Shown piece by piece: positions 36,423-48,417 of a DNA stretch of 54,280 nucleotides. Positions within the stretch are counted from its first letter, which is position 1. Every line of letters starts with the position of its first letter. The stretch lies in assembly GCF_005876855.1 (NCBI RefSeq), contig NZ_QLAE01000033.1, positions 1 to 54,280 on the forward strand, in the 5' to 3' direction. Origin of the DNA: Stutzerimonas nosocomialis (GTDB lineage Bacteria; Pseudomonadota; Gammaproteobacteria; Pseudomonadales; Pseudomonadaceae). Under the pieces are notes generated by a model that did no database searches, was not told the origin of the DNA, and saw only the letters and a list, made by a program, of their open reading frames with translations. A program made the position numbers and the translations under genes.

Positions 36423-36832
36423 GCGGATGCTCCTGGGTGGGTGGCGGTCTATGGCAGACCACGGCCTGTGGACGATGACTCCACCGGCGCGGCGAGATCG
36501 TCGGCGACACCGGCAGACGGCCGCGCTCGGCGGGCCTCGTGGAGTGTCGGGCCGGCGGCTTGTAAAGCTCGCGGTCAGACCAGGCGTCCCCGACCGCTCC
36601 CACGGGTGGTTTCAAGGTGAGGGGGCGGCAGAGTTCGCAGCCAAGGTCGCTTCCACAGTGGAGGTCGATGCGGTCGTGGTTTTCGTGGGGTGGTCGGGGC
36701 GCCTGGGCTTGACCGTGAATCCTCCTGACTCAGCCAGCGCCATGCCGCCAGTGTGCGGCACGTCACGGCGACTGATGCCCTTCTTGCGGACGGCCGCGCC
36801 GCTGCGGTCTACCCCTTCCAGGTACCCATTGG
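36423..36832. other. Intergenic region with REP elements
   Basis: Copies of the GTGGGAGCGG-type REP lie at 36569-36603 (reverse) and 36675-36721 (forward, diverged). I see no gene. Confidence 0.5.
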
Positions 36833-36952
36833 TAGACGAAAAAAATCAATATTTACACGTTGGTTTCTCGAATATAGATTCTTCGAGAAGCTCATGTTGT
36901 ATATGTTGATTATCTTCGTACATGTCTACAAAAATAAAAAAGGGTACAACGC
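36833..36952 (+). promoter_or_regulatory. AT-rich leader resembling the CitMHS upstream region
   Basis: TAGACGAAAAAAATCAATATTTACAC at 36833-36858 resembles GTACATAAAAAATCAAGATTTACGC at 42680-42704, upstream of the intact CitMHS gene. A later CGTACAT word is also shared (36918 and 42734). This indicates a duplicated regulatory region, and the AT content suggests a promoter. Confidence 0.5.
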
Positions 36953-37206
36953 ATGGCTTGGTTAGATTCCGCAAAGGTCGCCACCTTCATGGCGCCGGTT
37001 TTCGGCAAGCGATCATCCGCACTGGCTGTGCTGATACTGGTGGCGCTCGCATCCGGCCTCGCTGGCCAGACAGCGCTTGGCGAGATGGCCCCGGGTGGGG
37101 GGGCTGCAGCTGCACCCACCGCGTTCATATCGATGTTTCCCATCTTCTGTTTCGCGCTCCTGCACGCTCATCGCCGATGTCCGGGCGGCGTTACCGGAGC
37201 GATGCC
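36953..37206 (+). pseudogene. Decayed N-terminal fragment of a CitMHS transporter gene
   Basis: The frame MAWLDSAKVATFMAP...KRSSALAVLILV...SGLAG...LGEMAPGG...PTAFISMFPIFCFALL aligns position by position with the start of the CitMHS protein at 42812 (MAWVGFAMVSVFMLL...RRLSAIVALILV...FGLGI...MGEMIMDG...PTAMMLMFALLYFA). The similarity fades near 37206 and the rest of the transporter is absent. Open for 98 codons but probably not functional. Confidence 0.6.
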
Positions 37207-37524
37207 CGCCGGGTTGGATCGCCCGGCCCCTTGCGCCATCGGTAGATGAGCCCGTGCTCCTGAAATCGAAAACCTGCTTTGAACTCGGGCCTGTCTGTCT
37301 GCCTGGCGCGAGCAGTTCGCGGGCTGCGTCCGTTTAATCAGCGAGCGGCATTTTCGAGCGGTTCTGTCTGTTTGCGTCTCGGCAAGTTGTCCGGCTTGAA
37401 AGTCGCCTGCTCGGCCGCTTTTGAATGTGCTGCCGGGGAGTCAAGTAGTTGTTTGATCGTTGCGGGCCTCGCATAGGCCTGTAGGGAAAGCCTTGTCCAT
37501 ATAAAAACAATAGAAGAGGTTCGT
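37207..37524. other. Intergenic region before the porin gene
   Basis: No supported gene. The final part (37495-37520) is AT-rich and carries AGAAGAGG as ribosome binding site for the porin. Confidence 0.45.
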
Positions 37525-38922
37525 ATGCTGGCGAAAAGAATGACGTTAATGGCCTGTTCGGTATTGCTTGCGGGTGCCGGTAGTTGTCTGGCGGCAACCA
37601 TCGAATATCCCGAGCGGCTACAGGATGAAGGGAAACTGAACCTTTATATCCGCGCCTTGCAGATAGACACCGAAATATACAACGACCTGGTGGAGGACCA
37701 GTTTGGGGGATTTCCGGACGGATCGAAGTTGGGGGGTACCGGTATCGGCGCCATCGTGGATTACAGCTCCGGTTACTGGGGCGGATTCGTCGGATTCGAT
37801 GCGTCGCTTTATGGCGTGGCCAAGATCGATTCCAGGCAGAACAGCCGGGATATCTTTGACGACACGAGTGGAAGCAACAAGGGCTTCGCCAAGTTGGGGC
37901 AGGGCTACCTGAAGTTTCGGCATGGCGGTACGGGCTGGGTTGCCGACATGCAGGTCGGCCGGGGTCGCTTCGATGCCGGCACGCTGGCAACGCTGGATAC
38001 CCGGATCGCACCGGGGTCCTACCAGGGCGCGCGTGCGCGCCTCAGCTTCACCGACCTCGGAGTCGGCCCGCTGCCGGGCGAACTGGACTTCGACGTCGCC
38101 TACGTCAACCGCAGTTCGCCCCGGGACCGGGAAGACTTCGAGCGCCTGATGAGCAACACCGGCGAAACGATAGATGGCCTGTATACCTACGGCTTCAATT
38201 ATGACCTGAAGGCCGTTGAGTTCAGCTACCGGCATGGTGTGGCGAAGGACTTCAACGAGAACAGGCGCTATGAACTCACCTTGCAGGCCCCGGTCGGCGA
38301 AAACGGCGGCGTCATATTGAATACACAGTATTACGACTTCAAACGTGCGGGCGACATATGGCGGCGTGACTGGTTGGAAGGTGAAGCCGCCTACGACGAC
38401 AAGGCCAGTTGGTTGAACGTGAATCTGGGCATATTGATGAATCGCCTGCGCCTCGGGCTTTCCTACTCCGAAACGGATGCGAAGTTGAGCAACGGGCTAC
38501 TTGGCTACGCCTTTTACGATCATGGCGATAACGTCGACGGGCTGATGGATGCCTGGACGGAAGCGGGCAACGACTTCAACAATGACGGCGAAAAAACCTG
38601 GCAGGTCGGGGCCGAATATGATTTCAGCGGGCTCTCCTTGTTCGATGTGCCTCTTGATGGCGTAAAGGCAATGATCATCCACAAGCGAGGTAAGTTCGAT
38701 GCGGACAATCCCTTTACAGGGGTGTCGACGGATATCACCGAACGTCAGACGGAGTACCGTCTTTATTATCGTTTCGATGAAAAGGACTATGCCGGTTTGT
38801 CGGTGGGCATCATTTATACGGACTACCGGATCGACCAGGACTTCGTTTCCCTGGTCTCCGCCCAACCGGAGAACGTGGTGACGGGCAAGGAACTGCGGAC
38901 CTATATCGATTACGCCTTCTGA
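37525..38922 (+). CDS. OprD-family outer-membrane porin
   Basis: Protein of 465 aa with a signal peptide ending SCLA. The mature start ATIEYPERLQDEGKLNLYIRAL and the C-terminal YRLYYRFDE...YTDYRIDQDF...LRTYIDYAF strands fit the OprD superfamily. It is somewhat less GC-rich than its neighbours. It lies just downstream of the CitMHS fragment, so it may have served uptake of the same carboxylate class before the transporter decayed. Confidence 0.85.
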   Translation: MLAKRMTLMACSVLLAGAGSCLAATIEYPERLQDEGKLNLYIRALQIDTEIYNDLVEDQFGGFPDGSKLGGTGIGAIVDYSSGYWGGFVGFDASLYGVAKIDSRQNSRDIFDDTSGSNKGFAKLGQGYLKFRHGGTGWVADMQVGRGRFDAGTLATLDTRIAPGSYQGARARLSFTDLGVGPLPGELDFDVAYVNRSSPRDREDFERLMSNTGETIDGLYTYGFNYDLKAVEFSYRHGVAKDFNENRRYELTLQAPVGENGGVILNTQYYDFKRAGDIWRRDWLEGEAAYDDKASWLNVNLGILMNRLRLGLSYSETDAKLSNGLLGYAFYDHGDNVDGLMDAWTEAGNDFNNDGEKTWQVGAEYDFSGLSLFDVPLDGVKAMIIHKRGKFDADNPFTGVSTDITERQTEYRLYYRFDEKDYAGLSVGIIYTDYRIDQDFVSLVSAQPENVVTGKELRTYIDYAF

Positions 38923-39052: not shown

Positions 39053-39173
39053 GACGTTCGAGCCGCCCAGACGATTACCGGCCAGGCTCGCCTGCCAGGG
39101 TAGGCGGGCGTTCTCACAACCACCTGCCGTGGCGGGATTCGCAGCCGCGGCCCTGATGATCGGAGCGGCCGTG

Positions 39174-40457
39174 ATGCGGATATTCGGCGTGTTTCAGGCG
39201 GCGCCAGCCGTCGTTCGGCTCGGGGCCGTCGCGGCGCTGTGCCTGGTGGTGTCGTTCCATGCGAAGGGGGCGGAGTTGCCCGTCGGACCCGACGTGGGGG
39301 ACATGGTCCTGTCGCCCTTCTATCGGTGGTCCGGCCCGGTGCCGGATACGCCCGGAACCCTGCTGAAACAGGAGGCGATGGCAGGGCAGGAGGACATGCC
39401 CGCCGCGTCGGCAGCCATTCGTATCCTTTACAGCTCGCGGGACGAGCGCTGGGGGTCGGGGCCGATACCGGTCAGCGGAACCCTGTTTCTGCCGGCAGGT
39501 GAACCGCCCGCCGGTGGCTGGCCGCTGTTGGCCTGGGCGCACGGCACGCTGGGCATCGCCGACAGCTGTGCGCCCTCCTGGGCGGGCTTCAGGAGCCGCG
39601 ATGCGTCCTATCTGAACCGCTGGCTGGCGCAGGGCTTTGCGGTGGTCGCCACCGACTACCAGGGCCTGGGAGGGCCCGGGCCTCACCCTTATTCCTACTG
39701 GCAGGCGGAAGGCCGCTCGGTGCTGGATTCGATCCGCGCCGCCCAGGCTGTCGCGCCCGGCGCGCTTTCGGGCCGGACGCTGCTCGCCGGGCAGTCCCAG
39801 GGAGGAGGGGCGGCCTTGGGGGCGGCGACGCTGGCCGACACCCATGCCAGGGACCTGGATATCCGCGGCGCGGTGATCACCGGACCCAACAGCACCTTTC
39901 CCGAGGGGCCGATCGACTTGCCGAGGCGCCACTCGCTGACCATGTTCCTGGGATTCGCGACCGGGGCATTGAAGGACGGGGCGCCGCCGATGGAGGACAT
40001 TCTGAGCCTCAAGGGGCGCACCTTGCTGGGCGTGGCGCGCCAGGGCTGCACGGGCGATATCGCGCGCAAGGCGAGGGAGCTCGAGGTCGGCTCGTTCGAG
40101 GATCTGCTGGCCATCAGCCCGCAGGAACTGGCGTCCCTGCGCGTGCCCACGACCGACATGCCGCTGTCCTCGATCCGCTTTCCACTGCTGATCGCAACCG
40201 GCAAGGCCGACCGGACGATCACGCCCATGGAGCAGTACGCGGTCGCCGCCGCCCTGTGCGCGGCCGGCAACCAGGTCACCTGGCGGCTGCTCGAGGGGAT
40301 GGGGCATGACGGGGCGATGCACGGCTCCCTGGACGAGGCCTTCGCGTTCGCCAGGGCCCGGCTCGACGGGCGACCGGTCGGCGCCAATTGTTCCGACCTA
40401 CAACCGCCCGGCCCTCCTGGCGAGCGGAACCCGCAGGCGCCCTTCAACGATGACTGA
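39174..40457 (+). CDS. Secreted alpha/beta-hydrolase, secretory lipase (LIP) type
   Basis: Protein of 427 aa with a signal peptide (hydrophobic residues about 12-30). The nucleophile elbow is AGQSQGGGAA (GxSxG). The start region LLAWAHGTLGIADSCAPS and ATDYQGLGGPGPHPY are typical of the LIP family. C-terminal GKADRTITP and GMGHDGAMH supply the Asp and His of the triad. ATG 39174 with GGAG eight bases upstream is chosen over upstream GTG 39129 and ATG 39156. Substrate probably esters or triglycerides. Confidence 0.82.
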   Translation: MRIFGVFQAAPAVVRLGAVAALCLVVSFHAKGAELPVGPDVGDMVLSPFYRWSGPVPDTPGTLLKQEAMAGQEDMPAASAAIRILYSSRDERWGSGPIPVSGTLFLPAGEPPAGGWPLLAWAHGTLGIADSCAPSWAGFRSRDASYLNRWLAQGFAVVATDYQGLGGPGPHPYSYWQAEGRSVLDSIRAAQAVAPGALSGRTLLAGQSQGGGAALGAATLADTHARDLDIRGAVITGPNSTFPEGPIDLPRRHSLTMFLGFATGALKDGAPPMEDILSLKGRTLLGVARQGCTGDIARKARELEVGSFEDLLAISPQELASLRVPTTDMPLSSIRFPLLIATGKADRTITPMEQYAVAAALCAAGNQVTWRLLEGMGHDGAMHGSLDEAFAFARARLDGRPVGANCSDLQPPGPPGERNPQAPFNDD

Positions 40458-40548: not shown

Positions 40549-41757
40549 TCAGCCCGGCAGGGCGCCGGTATAGCGGGCGCGGTGCCGGACCAGCGGCTGC
40601 TGGTTGTACTGCTCGCAGGCGTGGGCGATCCAGCCGATCAGGCGGGCGACGGCGGCGAGCGTCAGTTCCTGGCCATCCAGGCCCAGCTTGCGACCGACGA
40701 AACTGACCAGCAGGATGAATTCGGCCGGGCGCTGCACCAGTTCCTCGGCCACCTTCATCGCCTTGAGCAGGCGCAGGTACTCCGGGTCCTCGGCGAACAT
40801 CTCGTCCAGCGTCCTTTTCAGGCTGATGGCGCGCGGGTCGGCGATGCTGTGCACGCGGTGCGCCGAGTGCGCGGTGGCGCAGAACCCGGGGATGTCCCCA
40901 CCTTGGCTGTAGTACTGCAGGATGGGCTCGGCCGGGTCCTTGGCATTGCACACATCCGACAGCAGGCGGCTGACCGCCTCGCTGCGGCCATAGGCGATGC
41001 GCCGGCCCCGCGCGGCGGCCAGGCCCGTGATCGCGGCGTAGTAGGGTGTGACGCCGGTATTGGCCGCCGCGCGCACGCTGTAGGTGGAGTGGTCCAGCTC
41101 GTGATCGATGCAGAGGATCAGCAGGCGCCGGATGAGGTCGGCGAAGCGCTCATCGACGCCGCAGGAGGCGGCGATGAATTCGTGCAGCGGGCGGGTGTCG
41201 GGCGCCGTCGCGCCGACCACCAGCGCGGCGAACCAGCGCACCACGTCGGCGCCGGTGCGTGCGTAGCCTTCCGGTGACAGGTCGAAGGCCTTCGGGTTTT
41301 CCCGCTCCACCAGCGGAAACAGGGCGATGGCCTTCTCGGTCACCGTGGTGTGGGCGTACAGCTCGAGCAACGGCGCGACCCCCTCGGGCAGGTGCGGCAG
41401 GGTGTCGCCGAAGGCGCCCGGCACCTGCCAGAACATCTCCGCGACTTCTTCCACGGTGGCCTGTTCCACCAGCTCGTTGACGTCCCGGCCGCGGTAATAC
41501 AGGCCGTCTTCGGTCAGCAGCGTCAGCGAGCTGTTGGAGTCGGGGCTGGCGCGTCGGGTCGATGGGCTGTCGCCGCCCCGGTTGCCCTTGACCAGGCGGT
41601 GGATATCCGCAGCCCAGTAGCGCCGCTTGCGCGAGCCTTCGACCTTCACCGAGCGGATGTTCTTGCGGCCCACGTAGGCATACAGGGTCGTCAGGTTGAC
41701 GCCGAGCAGGCTCGCGGCCTCTTCAGCGGAGAGGTAGAGCTCATCTTGATTCGCCAT
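40549..41757 (-). CDS. Citrate-synthase-fold protein with N-terminal HTH, catalytic residues altered
   Basis: Protein of 402 aa. Residues 8-57 form an excisionase/MerR-like helix-turn-helix (LSAEEAASLLGVNLTTLYAY, then RYWAADIHRL). The rest is a citrate synthase domain: HEL at residue 219, HRVH...DPRA at about 300, GWIAHACEQ and a final RARYTG. The LHGGANE loop that supplies a catalytic His reads RRIAYGRSEA (about 253-262) and the catalytic Asp of NVDF is Glu346 (PAEF). Substrate-binding His/Arg positions are kept. It is divergent from MipA/CitMHS and the catabolic genes. I infer a carboxylate-sensing regulator rather than a standard enzyme, though weak or different catalysis cannot be excluded. 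Confidence 0.82.
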   Translation of the reverse strand: MANQDELYLSAEEAASLLGVNLTTLYAYVGRKNIRSVKVEGSRKRRYWAADIHRLVKGNRGGDSPSTRRASPDSNSSLTLLTEDGLYYRGRDVNELVEQATVEEVAEMFWQVPGAFGDTLPHLPEGVAPLLELYAHTTVTEKAIALFPLVERENPKAFDLSPEGYARTGADVVRWFAALVVGATAPDTRPLHEFIAASCGVDERFADLIRRLLILCIDHELDHSTYSVRAAANTGVTPYYAAITGLAAARGRRIAYGRSEAVSRLLSDVCNAKDPAEPILQYYSQGGDIPGFCATAHSAHRVHSIADPRAISLKRTLDEMFAEDPEYLRLLKAMKVAEELVQRPAEFILLVSFVGRKLGLDGQELTLAAVARLIGWIAHACEQYNQQPLVRHRARYTGALPG

Positions 41758-41806
41758 GGCGCCCTTATGTAGACGATTCCCGTACAGATTTACCGATGTT
41801 AGTCCT

Positions 41807-41816
41807 CTGTATACAG
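41807..41816. promoter_or_regulatory. Palindrome CTGTATACAG in the divergent promoter
   Basis: A perfect 10-bp palindrome about 50 bp upstream of the citrate-synthase-like start and 76 bp before mipA. GTATAC-centred sites are typical of GntR/FCD operators. It could equally be the site of the HTH protein encoded next to it. TATGTAGAC and CGTACAG words lie nearby. Confidence 0.4.
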
Positions 41817-41891
41817 TCCTGCAAATCCTCCTTCGGAGCGTCTAGATCGGCACTCCGCGCATAATCCACCCCCTGATCAGAGGCTTTCCTC

Positions 41892-42674
41892 ATGAAATCG
41901 CTGTGTCTTGCTGTGTCTGTCGCTCACGCTGCTCTGCTGCTGCCCCTTGCGGCCCTGGCGGACAGGGAGCCCGGCTTCCAGTCCATCGGCCTGGGGGTGG
42001 CGGCGTCGGACAGCCTCTACGCCGGCGCGGACAAATCCGTGTCGGTGCTGCCCTTGCTGCACTACGAAGGGGAGCGCTTCTTCGTGCGTGGCGTGACGGC
42101 CGGCATGCGGTTGATCGAGCGCGAGGGCTTCGGCCTGGAGGCGATCGTCGCCGGGCGCTTCGAGGGGATCGACCGCAGCGACTTCGGGCGCGCCGAACTG
42201 GCCAGGAACGGCATCGACCGCGACCTGCTGGACGATCGTGACGATGGCGTCGACCTCGGCTTGCGGGCGAACTGGAAAAGCCTCGGGGGCGAGGTGCGCC
42301 TGTCCGCCCGTGCCGACGTCAGCGGCGCCAGCGAGGGTTACGAGCTGACCCTGGGCTATGGCTATCCAATGCAGCTGGCGGGCATGAAGGTGACGCCGTC
42401 GCTGGCGGTGAGCTACCTGTCGGACAAGCTCGCCGACTACTACTACGGCACTCTGAGCGACGAGGAGGCGCGCGGCGTGAGCCGCTATCGTCCGGGCGGC
42501 GCCGTGGTGCCCGGCGTGGCGCTGGGCCTGGCCAAGCCGCTCGGCGAGCGCTGGCTGCTCAGTGCCGAGGCCAGCTACCGCAGGCTGCCGGACCGTATCA
42601 CCGACAGCCCGCTGGTGGACAGTGATTCCAGCCACGTCGGATTCAGGTTGGGAGTGTCCTGGCTGTCCGATTGA
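41892..42674 (+). CDS. MipA/OmpV-family outer-membrane protein
   Basis: Protein of 260 aa with a signal peptide ending AALA. The pattern GLGVAASDSLYAGADKSVSVLPLLHYEGERFFVRG and YYYGTLSDEEARGVSRYRPGG matches the MipA/OmpV beta-barrel family. GAGG nine bases upstream. Some members are scaffolds for murein enzymes, others behave as porins; here the position before CitMHS suggests a passage for a carboxylate, which is an inference. Confidence 0.85.
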   Translation: MKSLCLAVSVAHAALLLPLAALADREPGFQSIGLGVAASDSLYAGADKSVSVLPLLHYEGERFFVRGVTAGMRLIEREGFGLEAIVAGRFEGIDRSDFGRAELARNGIDRDLLDDRDDGVDLGLRANWKSLGGEVRLSARADVSGASEGYELTLGYGYPMQLAGMKVTPSLAVSYLSDKLADYYYGTLSDEEARGVSRYRPGGAVVPGVALGLAKPLGERWLLSAEASYRRLPDRITDSPLVDSDSSHVGFRLGVSWLSD

Positions 42675-42811
42675 AGGGTGTACATAAAAAATCAAGATTT
42701 ACGCAAAAAACGTCAATGTGTATGTTCATCCCGTCGTACATCTTGGCCGGCTGCCTGGCCGCCTGATGGTTCGCACCCCCACCTGAATTCCTAAGAACAA
42801 GGACAAAAATA

Positions 42812-44095
42812 ATGGCTTGGGTTGGTTTCGCGATGGTTTCGGTGTTCATGCTGCTGATCCTCACGCGACGATTGTCGGCGATCGTCGCGCTGATCCTGGT
42901 GCCGGTGGCCTTCGGCCTCGGCATCGGGCTCGGTCCGCAGATGGGCGAGATGATCATGGACGGCGTCCTCAAGGTGACGCCCACCGCGATGATGCTGATG
43001 TTCGCGCTGCTGTACTTCGCGGTGATGTTCGACGCCGGCCTGTTCGAGCCGGCGGTGAAGCGGATCATCCGCTGGGTCGGTGACGACCCGCTGCGCATCA
43101 CCCTGGGCACCGCCGCGCTGTCGGCGATCATCTCGCTGGACGGTGACGGCGCGACCACGGTGCTGGTGGTGGTGACCTCGTTCCTTCCGGTGTACCTGCG
43201 GCTGGGCCTGAATCCGCTGATCCTGGCGGTGATGCTGCTGCTGACCAACACGGTGATGAACATCGTGCCCTGGGGCGGGCCGACAGCGCGGGCTGCCAGT
43301 GCGCTGCACCTGGACGCGCTGGACGTGTTCCTCGGCCTGATCCCGACCATGGTGATCGGCCTGGTCTATGCCTTCGCCGCCGCCTGGTGGCTGGGCATGC
43401 GCGAGCGCAAGCGCCTCGGCTGGGTGCCCGGCCGGACGACGGACGCGGGCCCGCTGCTGGTGCGCGAGCCCAAGGCCAGCCACCGGCCCAGGCTGTTCTG
43501 GGTCAACCTGGCGCTGACCCTGGGGCTGGTCGTGTCCATGGGGGCGGGGCTGGGGCCCTTGCCGATGCTGATGATGATCGGCCTCGCCCTGGCGCTGGTG
43601 ATCAACTACCCACGCCTGGCCGAGCAGCGCGAACGGATCGCCGCCCATTCCGAGAGCGTGCTGAGCGTGGTGGCCCTGATCTTCGCCGCCGGCGCCTTCA
43701 CCGGCATCCTCACCGGCTCGGGCATGGTCGACGGCATGTCCCAGGCGCTGCTCAGGGTGGTGCCGGAAGACGCCGGCCCCTACATGGGCTTCATCACGGC
43801 GCTGGCGAGCGTGCCTTTCACCTTCTTCATGTCCAACGATGCCTTCTTCTTCGGGATTCTGCCGATCCTGGGCGCCGCCGCCGCGGAGTATGGCGTGGAC
43901 CCGATCCACATCGCCCGCGCCTCGGTGCTGGGGCTGCCGGTGCACGCGATGAGCCCGCTGGTGGCGGCGCCCTACCTGCTGGCGGGTTTGCTCAAGCGCG
44001 ACCTGGGCGAGTTGCAGCGTTACTGCCTGGGCTGGGCCCTGGGCAGCTCCGGGGTGCTGATCATCGGCGCGCTCGTCACCGGCGCCATCATCTAG
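42812..44095 (+). CDS. CitMHS-family citrate/metal-citrate transporter
   Basis: Protein of 427 aa with about 12 membrane segments. Family motifs include SAIISLDGDGATTVLVV near residues 106-122, LTNTVMNIVPWGGPTARAAS, and in the C-terminal half GILTGSGMVDGMSQALLRVVPEDAGPYMGF and FFMSNDAFFFGILPI. CitMHS proteins take up citrate or citrate-metal complexes with protons. AAGGA about eight bases upstream. It begins the probable operon with four downstream enzymes; the gap to the next gene is 125 bp. Confidence 0.93.
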   Translation: MAWVGFAMVSVFMLLILTRRLSAIVALILVPVAFGLGIGLGPQMGEMIMDGVLKVTPTAMMLMFALLYFAVMFDAGLFEPAVKRIIRWVGDDPLRITLGTAALSAIISLDGDGATTVLVVVTSFLPVYLRLGLNPLILAVMLLLTNTVMNIVPWGGPTARAASALHLDALDVFLGLIPTMVIGLVYAFAAAWWLGMRERKRLGWVPGRTTDAGPLLVREPKASHRPRLFWVNLALTLGLVVSMGAGLGPLPMLMMIGLALALVINYPRLAEQRERIAAHSESVLSVVALIFAAGAFTGILTGSGMVDGMSQALLRVVPEDAGPYMGFITALASVPFTFFMSNDAFFFGILPILGAAAAEYGVDPIHIARASVLGLPVHAMSPLVAAPYLLAGLLKRDLGELQRYCLGWALGSSGVLIIGALVTGAII

Positions 44096-44220: not shown

Positions 44221-45243
44221 ATGAACGAGCAATTCCCGCGCAAGGTCGTGGTGACCCAGCGCTTCTTCGATCCCGAAAGCCTGGCCTACCTGCAGGCCAA
44301 TGGCTGCGCGGTGGAGATCGCCCCGCTGGCCGACGGGCAGGCCGATGGCGACCTCGACGAAGCCCGGCTGCTGGCGCTGTTGGCCGATGCCGACGCCTGG
44401 ATCGTCGGCCACGCCTGGATCACCGCCTCGCTGCTGGCCGGGCTGCCGCGGCTGAAGGTGATCGCCCGCCGCGGCGTCGGCTACGAGCGCGTCGATGTCG
44501 AGGCCGTGCGCGCCAGCGGCAAGGTGGCGACCATCGCGGTGGGCGGCAACGATGCCAGCGTGGCCGATCATGCCGTGGCCATGATGCTGGCGCTCGGGCG
44601 CCGACTGGGCGAGTCGAAGGCGCGCATGGCGGCTGGCGACTGGTCCATCACCCTCGGCCACGACCTCTGCGGCAAGACCGTCGGCATCGTCGGCCTGGGC
44701 CGCATCGGCTGCGGGGTCGCCAAGCGGCTGGTCGGCTTCGATGCCCGGGTGCTGGCCTGTACCCCGCACCCGGACCGGCGCCCCGGCTGGGCCCTGGGGG
44801 TGAACTACGTCGAGCTGGACACCCTGCTGGCCGAGAGCGACTACGTGACGCTGCATGCGCCGCTGCGCGAGGACACGCGCTTTCTCATCGACGCCGAGGC
44901 GCTGCGCCGGATGAAACCCACGGCCTTTCTGATCAACACCGCCCGCGGCGGCCTGGTGGACGACCGCGCGCTGCTCGAAGCCCTGCAGGCGGGCGTCATC
45001 GCGGGGGCCGGCCTGGACGTGTTCCAGAGCGAGATCGATCCCCTTTACCAACCCACCACCCAGGCGCTGCTCGCCCTGCCCAACGTCGTGGCCACCCCGC
45101 ACAGCGGCGCCTCGACCCACGAGGGCCTGCAGCGCACCAACCTGATCGCCGCGCAGTGCGTCGTCGCGGTGCTGAACGGCGACACGCCGCCAGCGTCCTG
45201 CGTCATCGCCGACGGACGCGGCCAGCTTTCACACGAGGAATGA
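44221..45243 (+). CDS. D-2-hydroxyacid dehydrogenase (SerA/GyaR-like)
   Basis: Protein of 340 aa. The NAD-binding loop is GIVGLGRIGCGVAKR and the catalytic triad residues are Arg242 (NTARGG), Glu271 (FQSEID) and His294 (PHSGAS). It would interconvert a 2-oxo acid and a D-2-hydroxy acid. It ends two bases before the AtuA-like gene, so the pair is co-translated. It lacks the ACT domain of many SerA proteins, fitting a catabolic role. Confidence 0.88.
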   Translation: MNEQFPRKVVVTQRFFDPESLAYLQANGCAVEIAPLADGQADGDLDEARLLALLADADAWIVGHAWITASLLAGLPRLKVIARRGVGYERVDVEAVRASGKVATIAVGGNDASVADHAVAMMLALGRRLGESKARMAAGDWSITLGHDLCGKTVGIVGLGRIGCGVAKRLVGFDARVLACTPHPDRRPGWALGVNYVELDTLLAESDYVTLHAPLREDTRFLIDAEALRRMKPTAFLINTARGGLVDDRALLEALQAGVIAGAGLDVFQSEIDPLYQPTTQALLALPNVVATPHSGASTHEGLQRTNLIAAQCVVAVLNGDTPPASCVIADGRGQLSHEE

Positions 45244-45245
45244 CG

Positions 45246-46613
45246 ATGAAAAACAGCATCAAGGTGCTCGTCCCGACTGGCTGCATCGGCTCGGGCGTAC
45301 GACTGGACCTGTTCGAGCAGGCCCTGCTGGAAAAACCGGACGTGATCGCGATGGACGGCGGCTCGACGGACTCCGGCCCCTACTACCTCGGCACCGGCAA
45401 GACCAAGGGTTCGGCGGCCGTGCTCAAGGCCGAGCTGCTGGTGTACATGCGCGCTCGCGCCGAGCTGGGCGTGCCGCTGATCATCGGCAGCAGTGGCACC
45501 TGCGGCTCCGACGCCGGCGTCGACCTGCTGCGCGGCCTGTGCCTGGAAGTGGCCGCCGAGCTGGGGCAGAAGGTCAAGATCGCCGCGATCTACGGCGAGC
45601 AGGACGCCGCCACGGTGACCCAGGCGCTGGCCGACGGCCGCGTGCTGCCGCTGAACCCGGTACGCCCGATCGACGACGCGCTGATCGAGCGCTGCTCGCA
45701 CATCGTCGCGGCGATGGGCGTCGAGCCCTTCATCCACGCACTGCAGCAGGGCGCGGACATCATCGTCGCCGGTCGCGCCACCGATACCGCGGTGCTCGCC
45801 TGCCTGCCGATCATGCGCGGCGCGCCGGCAGGGCCGGCCTGGCACGCCGGCAAGACCATGGAATGCGGCGCCCAGTGCACCACGACGCCCGCCGACGCCA
45901 TGGTCATGGCCGAGATCGACGAGGGGGGCTTCACCATCACCGCGATCGGCGACCAGGCGCGCCTGACTCCGCAATCGGTGATGGCGCACATGCTCTACGA
46001 GAACAGCAACCCGCTGCTGCTGGTCGAGCCGGGCGGCGCGCTGAACGTCGAGGCGGCCACCTACACCGCCCTCAGCGAGCGCAGCGTGCGGGTGGAGGGT
46101 TCGGTTTGGGAGCCGGCCGAGCGCTACACGGTCAAGCTCGAAGGGGCCGCGCCGGCCGGCTATCAGTCGGTGCTGCTGAGCGTGGTGCGTGGGCCGGAAT
46201 ACATCGCGCGTTTCGATGAATGGCTGGGGCAGCTGGACGACGTGATGCGCAAGCGCATCGAGAAGAACCTTGGGATCGGCCCGGCGGACTACGACCTGCA
46301 GTTTCGCGCCATCGGCAAGAACTCGGCGCTGGGCGCGCTGGAGCCGCGGGTCGGCACGCCGGTGGAAATCGGCGTGCTGGCCATCGCCACCAGCCCGGAC
46401 GAGTCGCGCACCCGCGACATCCTCGCGCTGCTCAACCCCTACATGCTGCATTTCCCGCTGCCCGAGGACGAGGAACTGCCGACCCACGCCTTCCCGCTGT
46501 CGCCGGCGTCCATGGATCGCGGGCTGATCTACGAGTTCGCGCTCAACCACGTGATGGTGGTGCCGGACCCGCTGACCCCGTTCCGCTTCGATTTCACCGT
46601 GACAGGAGCCTGA
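45246..46613 (+). CDS. AtuA/DUF1446-family protein
   Basis: Protein of 455 aa. N-terminal VPTGCIGSGVR, then MDGGSTDSGPYYLG, IIGSSGTCGSD and IVAGRATDTAVLACLPIMRG are typical of the acyclic-terpene-utilisation AtuA (DUF1446) family. The family is named from the citronellol pathway, but many members sit in other carboxylic-acid clusters and the reaction is unknown. The partner gene for DUF4387 follows after two bases; in longer AtuA proteins a similar small domain is fused, suggesting a complex. Confidence 0.87.
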   Translation: MKNSIKVLVPTGCIGSGVRLDLFEQALLEKPDVIAMDGGSTDSGPYYLGTGKTKGSAAVLKAELLVYMRARAELGVPLIIGSSGTCGSDAGVDLLRGLCLEVAAELGQKVKIAAIYGEQDAATVTQALADGRVLPLNPVRPIDDALIERCSHIVAAMGVEPFIHALQQGADIIVAGRATDTAVLACLPIMRGAPAGPAWHAGKTMECGAQCTTTPADAMVMAEIDEGGFTITAIGDQARLTPQSVMAHMLYENSNPLLLVEPGGALNVEAATYTALSERSVRVEGSVWEPAERYTVKLEGAAPAGYQSVLLSVVRGPEYIARFDEWLGQLDDVMRKRIEKNLGIGPADYDLQFRAIGKNSALGALEPRVGTPVEIGVLAIATSPDESRTRDILALLNPYMLHFPLPEDEELPTHAFPLSPASMDRGLIYEFALNHVMVVPDPLTPFRFDFTVTGA

Positions 46614-46615
46614 AC

Positions 46616-46927
46616 ATGATCCATTCCCAGGGTTACGAGATCCGTTCGAAGAGCGCCGGGCCGTTCTGGCTGACCTTCGACATCTTCTGCGCCGACGCCG
46701 AGACCTTCGGCAAGCTGTGCGGCGATCCGCACCTGAGCGCGCCGTCCATGGCCGCGCTGTTCCACAGCGACCCCGAGCAGGTGCGGATCTTCCACATGGC
46801 GCCGCTCAACGTGATCAAGATCAGCCTGCCGCGCCCCGTGGTGCAGGGCTCGGTGGCCGATCGCGACATGCACGGCGCGCAGTGGGGCTACGTGCTGGCC
46901 GAGGAACTGGCCCGGGCCGGCGTCTGA
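46616..46927 (+). CDS. DUF4387-family protein (AtuA-like small partner)
   Basis: Protein of 103 aa. SKSAGPFWLTFDIFCADAETFGKL and the end DRDMHGAQWGYVLAEELA match DUF4387, almost always encoded beside DUF1446 proteins. AGGAG at 46604-46608 and a two-base gap after the AtuA stop support co-translation. Probably a subunit of the same enzyme; no activity is established. Confidence 0.87.
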   Translation: MIHSQGYEIRSKSAGPFWLTFDIFCADAETFGKLCGDPHLSAPSMAALFHSDPEQVRIFHMAPLNVIKISLPRPVVQGSVADRDMHGAQWGYVLAEELARAGV

Positions 46928-47049: not shown

Positions 47050-48417
47050 ATGTCTGACCTGACGTTGGCCCGGCGGATCGCACGCTACGCCTGCGAACTG
47101 TCCGTCGACGACATTCCCGAGCCCGTGACCGCCTGCGTGCGGCGGCGCCTGGTCGACAGCCTGGCCTGCATCCTGGGGGCCTACGGCGCCGGCCCGGTGC
47201 AGGTCGCGCTGGCGATGGCGGCGCAGACGCCGCTGCCGGCTGCCAGCGTGTTCGGCACCAACCTGCGCACCACGCCTGAGTTGGCGGCGTTCGCCAACGG
47301 CGTCATGGTGCGCTTTCTCGACTACAACGACGGCTACATGGGCCGCGAGCCGGGCCATCCGAGCGACAACATTCCCGCCTGCCTCGCCCTGGCGGAGGCC
47401 GAGGGCGCGACGGGGCGCGAGCTGATCGCGGCCATCGTGGTCGCCTACGAGATCCAGATGCGGCTGCAGGACGCGGCCAGCCTGAACAAGCGCGGCTGGG
47501 ACCACGTCAACTACATCAACGTCGCCATGGCCGCCGCCGCGTCCCGACTGCTGAAGCTGGACGAAGCGCGCACTGAGCAGGCGATCAACATCGCGCTCAG
47601 CGCACACCTGGCCACGCGCCAGGTGCGCTCGGGCTCGCTGTCGGACTGGAAGGGCTGCTCGGCCGCCAACGCGGCGCGCAACGCGATCTTCGCCGCGCAG
47701 CTGGCGCGCCACGGCATGACCGGGCCGTCTCCGGCGTTCGAAGGCGAGATGGGCTTCTTCCGGCAGGTATCGGGCGAGTTCGAGCTCGACGTCGAAGGCT
47801 TCGGAAACCGCGCGAACGGCGACTTCGCCATCCTGCGCTCGCTCACCAAGACCTTCCCCACCAACGGGGAGCTGCACACGGCGGTGTGGGCGGCCATCGA
47901 CCTGCGCGCGCGAATCCCCGACCTCGAGGCCATCGAATCCATACGGATCGAGACCTCCGAATTCAATCGCCGGGTACTGGCCGACCCGGAGAAATGGCAG
48001 CCCAGAACGCGCGAGACGGCCGACCACAGCCTGCCCTACAACGTGGCCCGGGCGCTGCTGGACGGAGACATCACCCTGGATTCCTATTCCATGGAGCGGA
48101 TCTGCGACCCGCGCGCCATCGCCCTGATGGGCCGGACCACGGTCAGCGAGGACGCCGGGCTGACCCGGCTGTTCCCCCGCTACCTGGCGAACCGGGTGAG
48201 CGCGACCCTGGTGTCGGGCGAAAAGCTGACCTGCGAAATGATCAGCGGCCCCGGCTCCCTGGAAACCCCGATGACCGATGGGGATTTCGAGCGCAAGTTC
48301 CGCCGCATGGCGGCGCCGCACCTCGCCCCGTCCGCGCAGGACCGGGCCCTGGCGTTCGTCGCGAACCTGGAGCGGCAGAGCGACTACGCCGGGCTGTTCG
48401 ACGCGATGAGGCCCTGA
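47050..48417 (+). CDS. MmgE/PrpD-family protein
   Basis: Protein of 455 aa, the usual length. The N-terminal helical domain has RRRLVDSLACILGAYGAGP and NGVMVRFLDYNDGYMGREPGHPSDNIPA. Later come KRGWDHVNYINVAMAAAASRLL and TADHSLPYNVARALLDG. The family includes 2-methylcitrate dehydratase, cis-aconitate decarboxylase and iminodisuccinate epimerase, that is, enzymes acting on tri- and dicarboxylates. With CitMHS it supports a branched or substituted tricarboxylate as substrate; the exact reaction is not readable. Confidence 0.9.
   Translation: MSDLTLARRIARYACELSVDDIPEPVTACVRRRLVDSLACILGAYGAGPVQVALAMAAQTPLPAASVFGTNLRTTPELAAFANGVMVRFLDYNDGYMGREPGHPSDNIPACLALAEAEGATGRELIAAIVVAYEIQMRLQDAASLNKRGWDHVNYINVAMAAAASRLLKLDEARTEQAINIALSAHLATRQVRSGSLSDWKGCSAANAARNAIFAAQLARHGMTGPSPAFEGEMGFFRQVSGEFELDVEGFGNRANGDFAILRSLTKTFPTNGELHTAVWAAIDLRARIPDLEAIESIRIETSEFNRRVLADPEKWQPRTRETADHSLPYNVARALLDGDITLDSYSMERICDPRAIALMGRTTVSEDAGLTRLFPRYLANRVSATLVSGEKLTCEMISGPGSLETPMTDGDFERKFRRMAAPHLAPSAQDRALAFVANLERQSDYAGLFDAMRP

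Follow-up and report, generated by a model that had tools for sequence, protein, structure and literature searches.

The window, that is, the whole stretch of 54,280 nucleotides from Stutzerimonas nosocomialis that was analyzed, carries at 40549..41757 on the minus strand an open reading frame whose translation is a fusion protein of 402 amino acids, proposed here to be a regulator. Its N-terminal part (residues 8-59; 41581..41736, minus strand) is an excisionase/MerR-like helix-turn-helix (HTH), which matched Pfam HTH_17 over the cut-off (E 4.3e-7), and residues 76-392 (40582..41532, minus strand) form a citrate-synthase-fold domain, which matched Pfam Citrate_synt over the cut-off (E 3.7e-33) and was aligned to plain citrate synthase (CS) by hhalign with a probability of 99.8. 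Both the reading frame and the fusion had been given in a first-pass annotation of this DNA, and both are borne out. The match of the HTH to the NCBIfam excise model TIGR01764 was below the cut-off (1.5e-6), and that to Pfam MerR_1 (PF13411; 0.006) scored 17.1 bits against a cut-off of 21.6, so the domain was not assigned to the MerR family. According to Pfam, a DNA-binding domain and a ligand-type domain are combined in one chain, which is the architecture of a one-component transcription factor. The dN/dS values against the relatives L034, L035, L037, L041, and L044 were 0.05-0.15 for the HTH and 0.11-0.17 for the CS part, whereas the comparison with L059 was saturated. The overall range of 0.05-0.17 indicates that the gene is maintained by purifying selection, and pseudogene decay was thereby ruled out. 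An AlphaFold2 model of the protein from 12 close rows was of low confidence (pLDDT 42.6). Two further citrate synthases, GltA-like and PrpC-like as named from their sequences, are encoded elsewhere in the same genome, so the window protein is not the only CS-like gene product of the cell.

Divergent from the HTH-CS gene lies mipA, coding for a MipA/OmpV outer-membrane protein (41892..42674, plus strand; Pfam MipA 1e-43). It is followed on the plus strand by genes for a CitMHS citrate:proton symporter (42812..44095; TIGR00784 2e-145, over the cut-off), a D-2-hydroxyacid dehydrogenase (44221..45243; Pfam 2-Hacid_dh_C 7.5e-57), an AtuA-family protein (45240..46613; Pfam AtuA 3.5e-24), a DUF4387 protein (46613..46927; Pfam DUF4387 1.9e-24), and an MmgE/PrpD-family protein (47050..48417; Pfam MmgE_PrpD_N 6e-80 and MmgE_PrpD_C 1e-37). 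The CitMHS, AtuA, dehydrogenase, and MmgE neighbors make the cluster look like one that takes up and degrades a citrate-like acid. Our search of open-licence papers found none that contains both AtuA and DUF4387. On the other side of the HTH-CS gene, also on the plus strand, are an OprD-family porin (37525..38922; Pfam OprD 1.7e-17) and a secretory-lipase-like alpha/beta hydrolase (39129..40457; Pfam LIP 3e-16). An open reading frame of 98 amino acids at 36953-37249 may open the porin-side unit or be a remnant. At about 49.4-50.3 kb on the plus strand, close to where the catabolic genes end, there is a reading frame of LysR-type appearance as judged by eye.

Proteins of the same architecture are widespread. 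We collected 84 HTH-CS genes, which gave 79 distinct proteins after five identical pairs were merged, together with 38 plain CS genes from the same loci. Full-length HTH-CS proteins were found in 14 of 298 sampled Pseudomonadaceae genomes and, as a single match, in 52 of 398 sampled Pseudomonadota genomes (the window's own genome is included in both counts, and genome G653 has the protein in two pieces). Close relatives of the window protein, 83-99% identical, are found in Pseudomonas, and the protein of Stutzerimonas azotifigens (L034) is 99% identical. Plasmid-borne relatives occur in Agrobacterium, Azospirillum, Cupriavidus, and Deinococcus, among others. On a Cupriavidus oxalaticus plasmid of 402 kb that was typed as conjugative (L045), two HTH-CS genes of the clade that lost catalysis lie about 5-6 kb apart, one adjoining AtuA and DUF4387 and the other a porin and an MFS transporter. 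No HTH-CS relative was found in viral contigs, and none of the 3 operator-like matches in those contigs lay beside an HTH-CS gene.

The phylogeny was inferred as a quick IQ-TREE tree of 119 rows from which the three catalytic columns had been removed; support was by SH-aLRT only, and long branches were flagged. All 79 HTH-CS proteins formed one clade (SH-aLRT 99), and a single change suffices to place the HTH label on the tree. A chance fusion was ruled out by this grouping, within the limits of a quick tree with SH-aLRT support and flagged long branches. The window protein belongs to a monophyletic group of 21 members (SH-aLRT 100), hereafter the window clade, which is nested within HTH-CS proteins that keep the catalytic triad, via branches with support of 82-90. 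Our reading of the tree is that a single HTH-CS fusion took place, that catalysis was presumably lost later in the window clade, and that further losses may have occurred elsewhere (L110, L100, L073/L111-L115); the number of loss events was not counted because of the flagged long branches. The family can thus be traced from triad-intact members to a clade that appears catalytically dead. The earlier view that a central metabolic enzyme had become a regulator needs amending accordingly: the protein is derived from CS, but not from the cell's own GltA, since the cell has GltA and PrpC as genes in their own right and the fusion dates far back. Members L111-L115 constitute a second degenerate group, in which 4 of 5 proteins also lack the His226 residue and no operator was found. 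The gene downstream of HTH-CS in L111 and L113 starts like an undecaprenyl-diphosphatase by eye, and the gene upstream in L113 codes for a cation-efflux protein.

The gene neighborhoods of these relatives are informative about the role of the protein. A blastp comparison with the proteins encoded in the window placed a CitMHS relative beside 15 of the 21 window-clade members, and one or more of CitMHS, AtuA, dehydrogenase, and MmgE beside 20 of the 21. The upstream neighbor is divergent in 65 of 79 HTH-CS genes, compared with about 46% of gene starts in the same loci, a baseline that rests on 84 entries with duplicates included (212 of 891 adjacent pairs divergent, 488 tandem) and, like the count itself, on a crude ORF caller; some of the partners are 1-3 kb distant. 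Outside the window clade, 31 loci have a plain CS as this divergent neighbor. When 10 of the other divergent neighbors were scanned with Pfam, CoA-transferase family III accounted for 5, with single cases of an MFS transporter, a 2-hydroxyacid dehydrogenase, a cation efflux protein, and a methyltransferase. The plain CS of the HTH-CS loci are themselves unusual, as 34 of 38 have Glu at the position of the catalytic Asp (e.g., L047, 7758-8870), and these 34 form one clade (SH-aLRT 99). Citrate synthase enzymes are dimers or larger, and 38 loci of distant HTH-CS genes also contain a plain CS gene, which would fit a pseudoenzyme that joins GltA or PrpC in mixed oligomers to adjust their activity and uses the HTH as a protein contact. 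We regard this as highly unlikely for the window protein, since in the stretches covered (L035 ends at a contig end) none of the 21 window-clade genes was found to have a plain CS beside it, a plain CS that is the immediate upstream neighbor is divergent rather than co-transcribed, and the operator motif described below has no role in such a scheme.

The catalytic and ligand-binding residues were compared in a MAFFT alignment of the 79 HTH-CS proteins, the 38 plain CS, and the cell's GltA and PrpC, and are numbered as in E. coli citrate synthase (H226, H264, H305, D362, R314, R387, and R407). The three citrate/oxaloacetate-binding arginines R314, R387, and R407 (Arg309, Arg372, and Arg391 of the window protein) are kept in all 21 window-clade members, and in 58/58, 57/58, and 58/58 of the other HTH-CS proteins, respectively. 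The H226 position, His219 in the window protein, is kept in 20 of 21 clade members. His219 and the arginines of DPRA, VARxxGW, and RHRARYTG are retained as first noted. The replacement of the HGG-loop His is solid and goes beyond chance: H264 is absent from all 21 members by MAFFT, with I, V, M, L, or T instead, and residues 250-262 of the window protein contain no His at all, while 6 of 21 members have a His at another place in the loop.

The remaining two catalytic positions are less uniform. The HRV His of the window protein sits at a 6-residue insert, and hhalign places it on H305, in agreement with the first-pass annotation as far as this one protein is concerned. Across the clade it is not a conserved feature; MAFFT finds His at H305 in 3 of 21 members, and in 11 of 21 if the His of the insert is counted as aligned. 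Members lacking the insert have Ala (4), Ser (3), His (3), or Pro, Arg, and Phe (1 each), so that 10 of 21 members have a residue other than His. This variability indicates that the position lacks the constraint expected of a catalytic residue. For D362, the proposed change of the catalytic Asp to Glu346 depends on the method, because hhalign of the clade with plain CS aligns Glu346 with D362, whereas MAFFT, via the intact HTH-CS relatives, puts Ile348, two residues further on, in that column; neither residue is Asp. The D362 column by MAFFT contains Ile, Val, or Ala in the clade; at position 346, 20 of 21 members have an acidic residue (16 Glu, 4 Asp) and one has Ala. The claim that exactly two catalytic residues were lost is consequently unsupported, with His305 variable and the Asp362 equivalent dependent on the alignment. 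Two substitutions that the first-pass annotation did not mention mark the clade: Arg258 in the HGG loop is present in 21 of 21 members, 1 of 58 other HTH-CS proteins, and 0 of 40 plain CS, and His303 replaces a Tyr in 20 of 21 members and 0 of 98 others, Tyr being found in 54 of 58 other HTH-CS proteins and all 40 plain CS. The 58 other HTH-CS proteins keep H264 in 52, H305 in 51, and D362 in 52 cases, and the complete His/His/Asp set is intact in 50 of the 79 family members. Judged from these residues, the window clade looks catalytically dead, having lost one key catalytic residue or more while keeping the acid-binding arginines. The overall Citrate_synt match, the hhalign placement of the HRV His and Glu346 on H305 and D362, and the Glu-bearing plain CS beside distant relatives, which may be active, would be compatible with a working citrate or methylcitrate synthase, or another acyl-CoA condensing enzyme, that carries an incidental HTH. 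This is nevertheless very improbable given the loss of the HGG-loop His throughout the clade, the substitutions at H305, and the cell's own GltA and PrpC.

Candidate operators were identified around the gene. O1 (GTAAATCTGTAC-N7-GTCTAC; 41769..41793, minus strand) lies in the gap shared with mipA, its 12-mer starts 36 bases before the ATG of the regulator, and it is conserved in relatives. O2 (GTAAATCTTGAT-N7-GTACAC; 42678..42702, minus strand) is located between mipA and the CitMHS gene, where 6 relatives have GTAAATCTGTAT at the same place. O3 (GTAAATATTGAT-N7-GTCTAC; 36832..36856, minus strand), found with 1 mismatch in the whole-genome scan, lies upstream of the 98-amino-acid reading frame, which directly follows O3 and O4, and, about 670 bases on, of the OprD porin. 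The weak site O4 (36899..36923, plus strand) has 3 mismatches and came from a pattern that was loosened after O3 had been seen; with this loosened pattern, the window has 4 sites, where shuffled versions averaged 0.24 and none of 100 reached 4. The exact 12-mer of O1 is unique in the genome, with four one-mismatch sites elsewhere. The extended pattern GTAAATCTKKAYN7GTNNAC, allowing 2 mismatches, had 3 matches in the 4.76-Mb genome, all in this cluster (O1, O2, and O3), and its reversed control also had 3 matches in the genome. As the extended pattern was drawn from O1 and O2, O3 represents an independent match. A scan of 41700-42900 for sigma-70-like promoters and terminators found nothing.

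Similar sites are present in most relatives. Distant members have the upstream sequence RTCAATMTTGATN7ATCAAY, in most cases some 25-40 bases ahead of the start; at up to 2 mismatches it was found 53 times in 1.05 Mb of loci, 49 of these at HTH-CS starts. Allowing 1 mismatch, this motif occurred exactly once per genome, just before HTH-CS, in 14 of 14 genomes with a triad-intact member, from 11 genera, and its reversed form had no match in them; these genomes were picked from members already seen with the motif, so the result bears on uniqueness and not on presence. In the window clade, the motif has diverged to GTAAATCTGTAY while keeping its register. This form was matched 28 times in the 14 Pseudomonadaceae genomes that carry the gene (26 matches fall within neighborhoods of about 13 kb) and twice in 14 genomes without it. 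Counting all forms, 69 of 79 members have an operator-like motif close to the start codon, versus 5 of 1580 dinucleotide-shuffled regions, where the motifs were derived from the same loci in which they were counted, genome-wide uniqueness and O3 being the independent parts, and L045b was counted only at 3 mismatches. No operator was found by the rule used in 10 of 79 members (L049, L063, L073, L105, and L110-L115). L049 and L110 have a version with a shorter spacer, and L063 (genome G310) is a window-clade member with the gene present. The operators of L062, L064, and L065 are hybrids with a new left half and an old right half. Operator type also tracks the HTH, with Lys32 in 20 of 20 type-B/B2 and Gly32 in 46 of 49 type-A members, an association that is phylogenetically confounded because it largely sets one clade against the rest. 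In relatives, further motif copies are found ahead of CitMHS (6 loci) and ahead of a pair of downstream genes (DUF1302/DUF1329 in L039). By sequence evidence, then, a conserved and specific site is present at the HTH-CS gene's own promoter and at neighboring ones.

These sites could belong to another regulator, such as the LysR-type-looking reading frame, with the HTH-CS gene merely a target, and self-regulation by HTH-CS is itself an inference. We consider this unlikely, because each of the 14 chosen genomes has a single copy of the motif, next to HTH-CS, and the motif persists across divergent partners as different as plain CS, CoA transferase family III, an MFS transporter, and a dehydrogenase. 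A distinct regulator devoted to these sites would need to move together with HTH-CS. The presence of the motif in most members makes DNA binding directly testable.

Taken together, the window protein is probably a local one-component transcription factor that acts on the neighboring organic-acid cluster and uses a dead citrate-synthase domain as its sensor. The suggestion of a CS-derived transcription factor over the adjacent transporter and catabolic genes gains support from the motif before the regulator and CitMHS genes, its confinement to the cluster, its recurrence in relatives, and the frequent divergence of the upstream gene. According to this model, the N-terminal HTH would bind O1, O2, and O3. 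O1 would serve the regulator's own promoter and the mipA side, O2 the genes from CitMHS through the dehydrogenase, AtuA, and DUF4387 to MmgE, which may form one operon, and O3 the OprD side; self-control is probable because of the position of O1 relative to the regulator's start codon. The CS domain would no longer condense substrates and would bind a tri- or dicarboxylate, presumably the substrate or an intermediate of the cluster, through His219, Arg309, Arg372, and Arg391. Closure of the domain, as in the enzyme, might then alter DNA binding, and our guess is a repressor relieved by its ligand.

The triad-intact members, most of which share the operator position, raise the idea of a trigger enzyme that binds DNA and slowly turns over a modified substrate, with flux rather than ligand level as the signal. 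The loss of the HGG-loop His in every window-clade member makes this very unlikely for the window protein. A ligand-sensing regulator is the reading that we prefer, and a bolder extension of it is offered tentatively, as more doubtful than not. HTH-CS proteins may form a broad family of metabolite-sensing transcription factors, and since most of those collected keep the triad and many lie divergently beside Glu-substituted plain CS, catalysis or closure on the DNA-bound protein may be the signal. The Pseudomonas/Cupriavidus clade might then have lost catalysis and refitted its pocket (Arg258, His303) for a different polycarboxylate while operator and HTH diverged together, and the cluster might represent an undescribed route for a citrate-like acid, for example an alkyl- or isomeric tricarboxylate.

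NadR, BirA, PutA, the ROK repressors, and MocR are examples of one-component regulators derived from enzymes and of trigger enzymes. They resemble the window protein in that a DNA-binding part is joined to an enzyme fold, and differ from it in the fold concerned. To our knowledge, no enzyme-derived regulator is built on citrate synthase. A subfamily for CS-like proteins that carry an HTH may exist in the CDD. Among the 60 of 84 family-profile matches listed for solved structures, none has both an HTH and a CS domain, and the best stretches all start at or after profile position 70. Our search of open-licence papers found no description of the HTH-CS family as regulators, and many such proteins are annotated by NCBI as 'citrate synthase family protein'. 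The window protein belongs to a widespread, apparently undescribed family of putative CS-based regulators. If this is true, some genes annotated as citrate synthase code for regulators, which affects metabolic models, and the HTH-CS regulator provides a handle on the uncharacterised CitMHS/AtuA/DUF4387/MmgE acid-degradation cluster.

Several known systems can be set beside the window protein. GltA and PrpC have a homologous domain and the ligand-binding arginines in common with it, and differ in lacking an HTH and in having the catalytic His/His/Asp intact. In the part of one paper available to us, a citrate synthase family protein is named in a table row and in a general mention (PMC12542777). 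Adjacent CS-like genes with a shared intergenic region have been described in Streptomyces coelicolor (sco5831/sco5832, citA3/citA4; PMC12323332), and of the products of the Caulobacter pair citB/citC (CCNA_03757/03758), only CitB was able to stand in for E. coli GltA (PMC7083601). In the accessible portions of these papers both pairs are treated as citrate synthases, with no mention of an HTH or a regulator role (PMC12323332; PMC7083601). Kinship with the HTH-CS loci is at most a lead. HTH-CS and Glu-substituted plain CS would constitute an undescribed type of pair, and the plain partner may match Caulobacter CitB. Caulobacter CitA is a functional citrate synthase that exerts cell-cycle control through CtrA independently of catalysis; like the proposed regulator it is a regulatory CS, and unlike it, as far as the parts of the source available to us go, it is a plain enzyme with no DNA-binding domain mentioned (PMC7083601). 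A parallel with the same architecture is ATU_RS25370, a pAt gene of Agrobacterium fabrum C58, which codes for an HTH-CS protein of the same clade with a similarly placed operator, and differs from the window protein in keeping His/His/Asp, in lying divergently beside a plain CS, and in being only 32.6% identical to it (tblastn).
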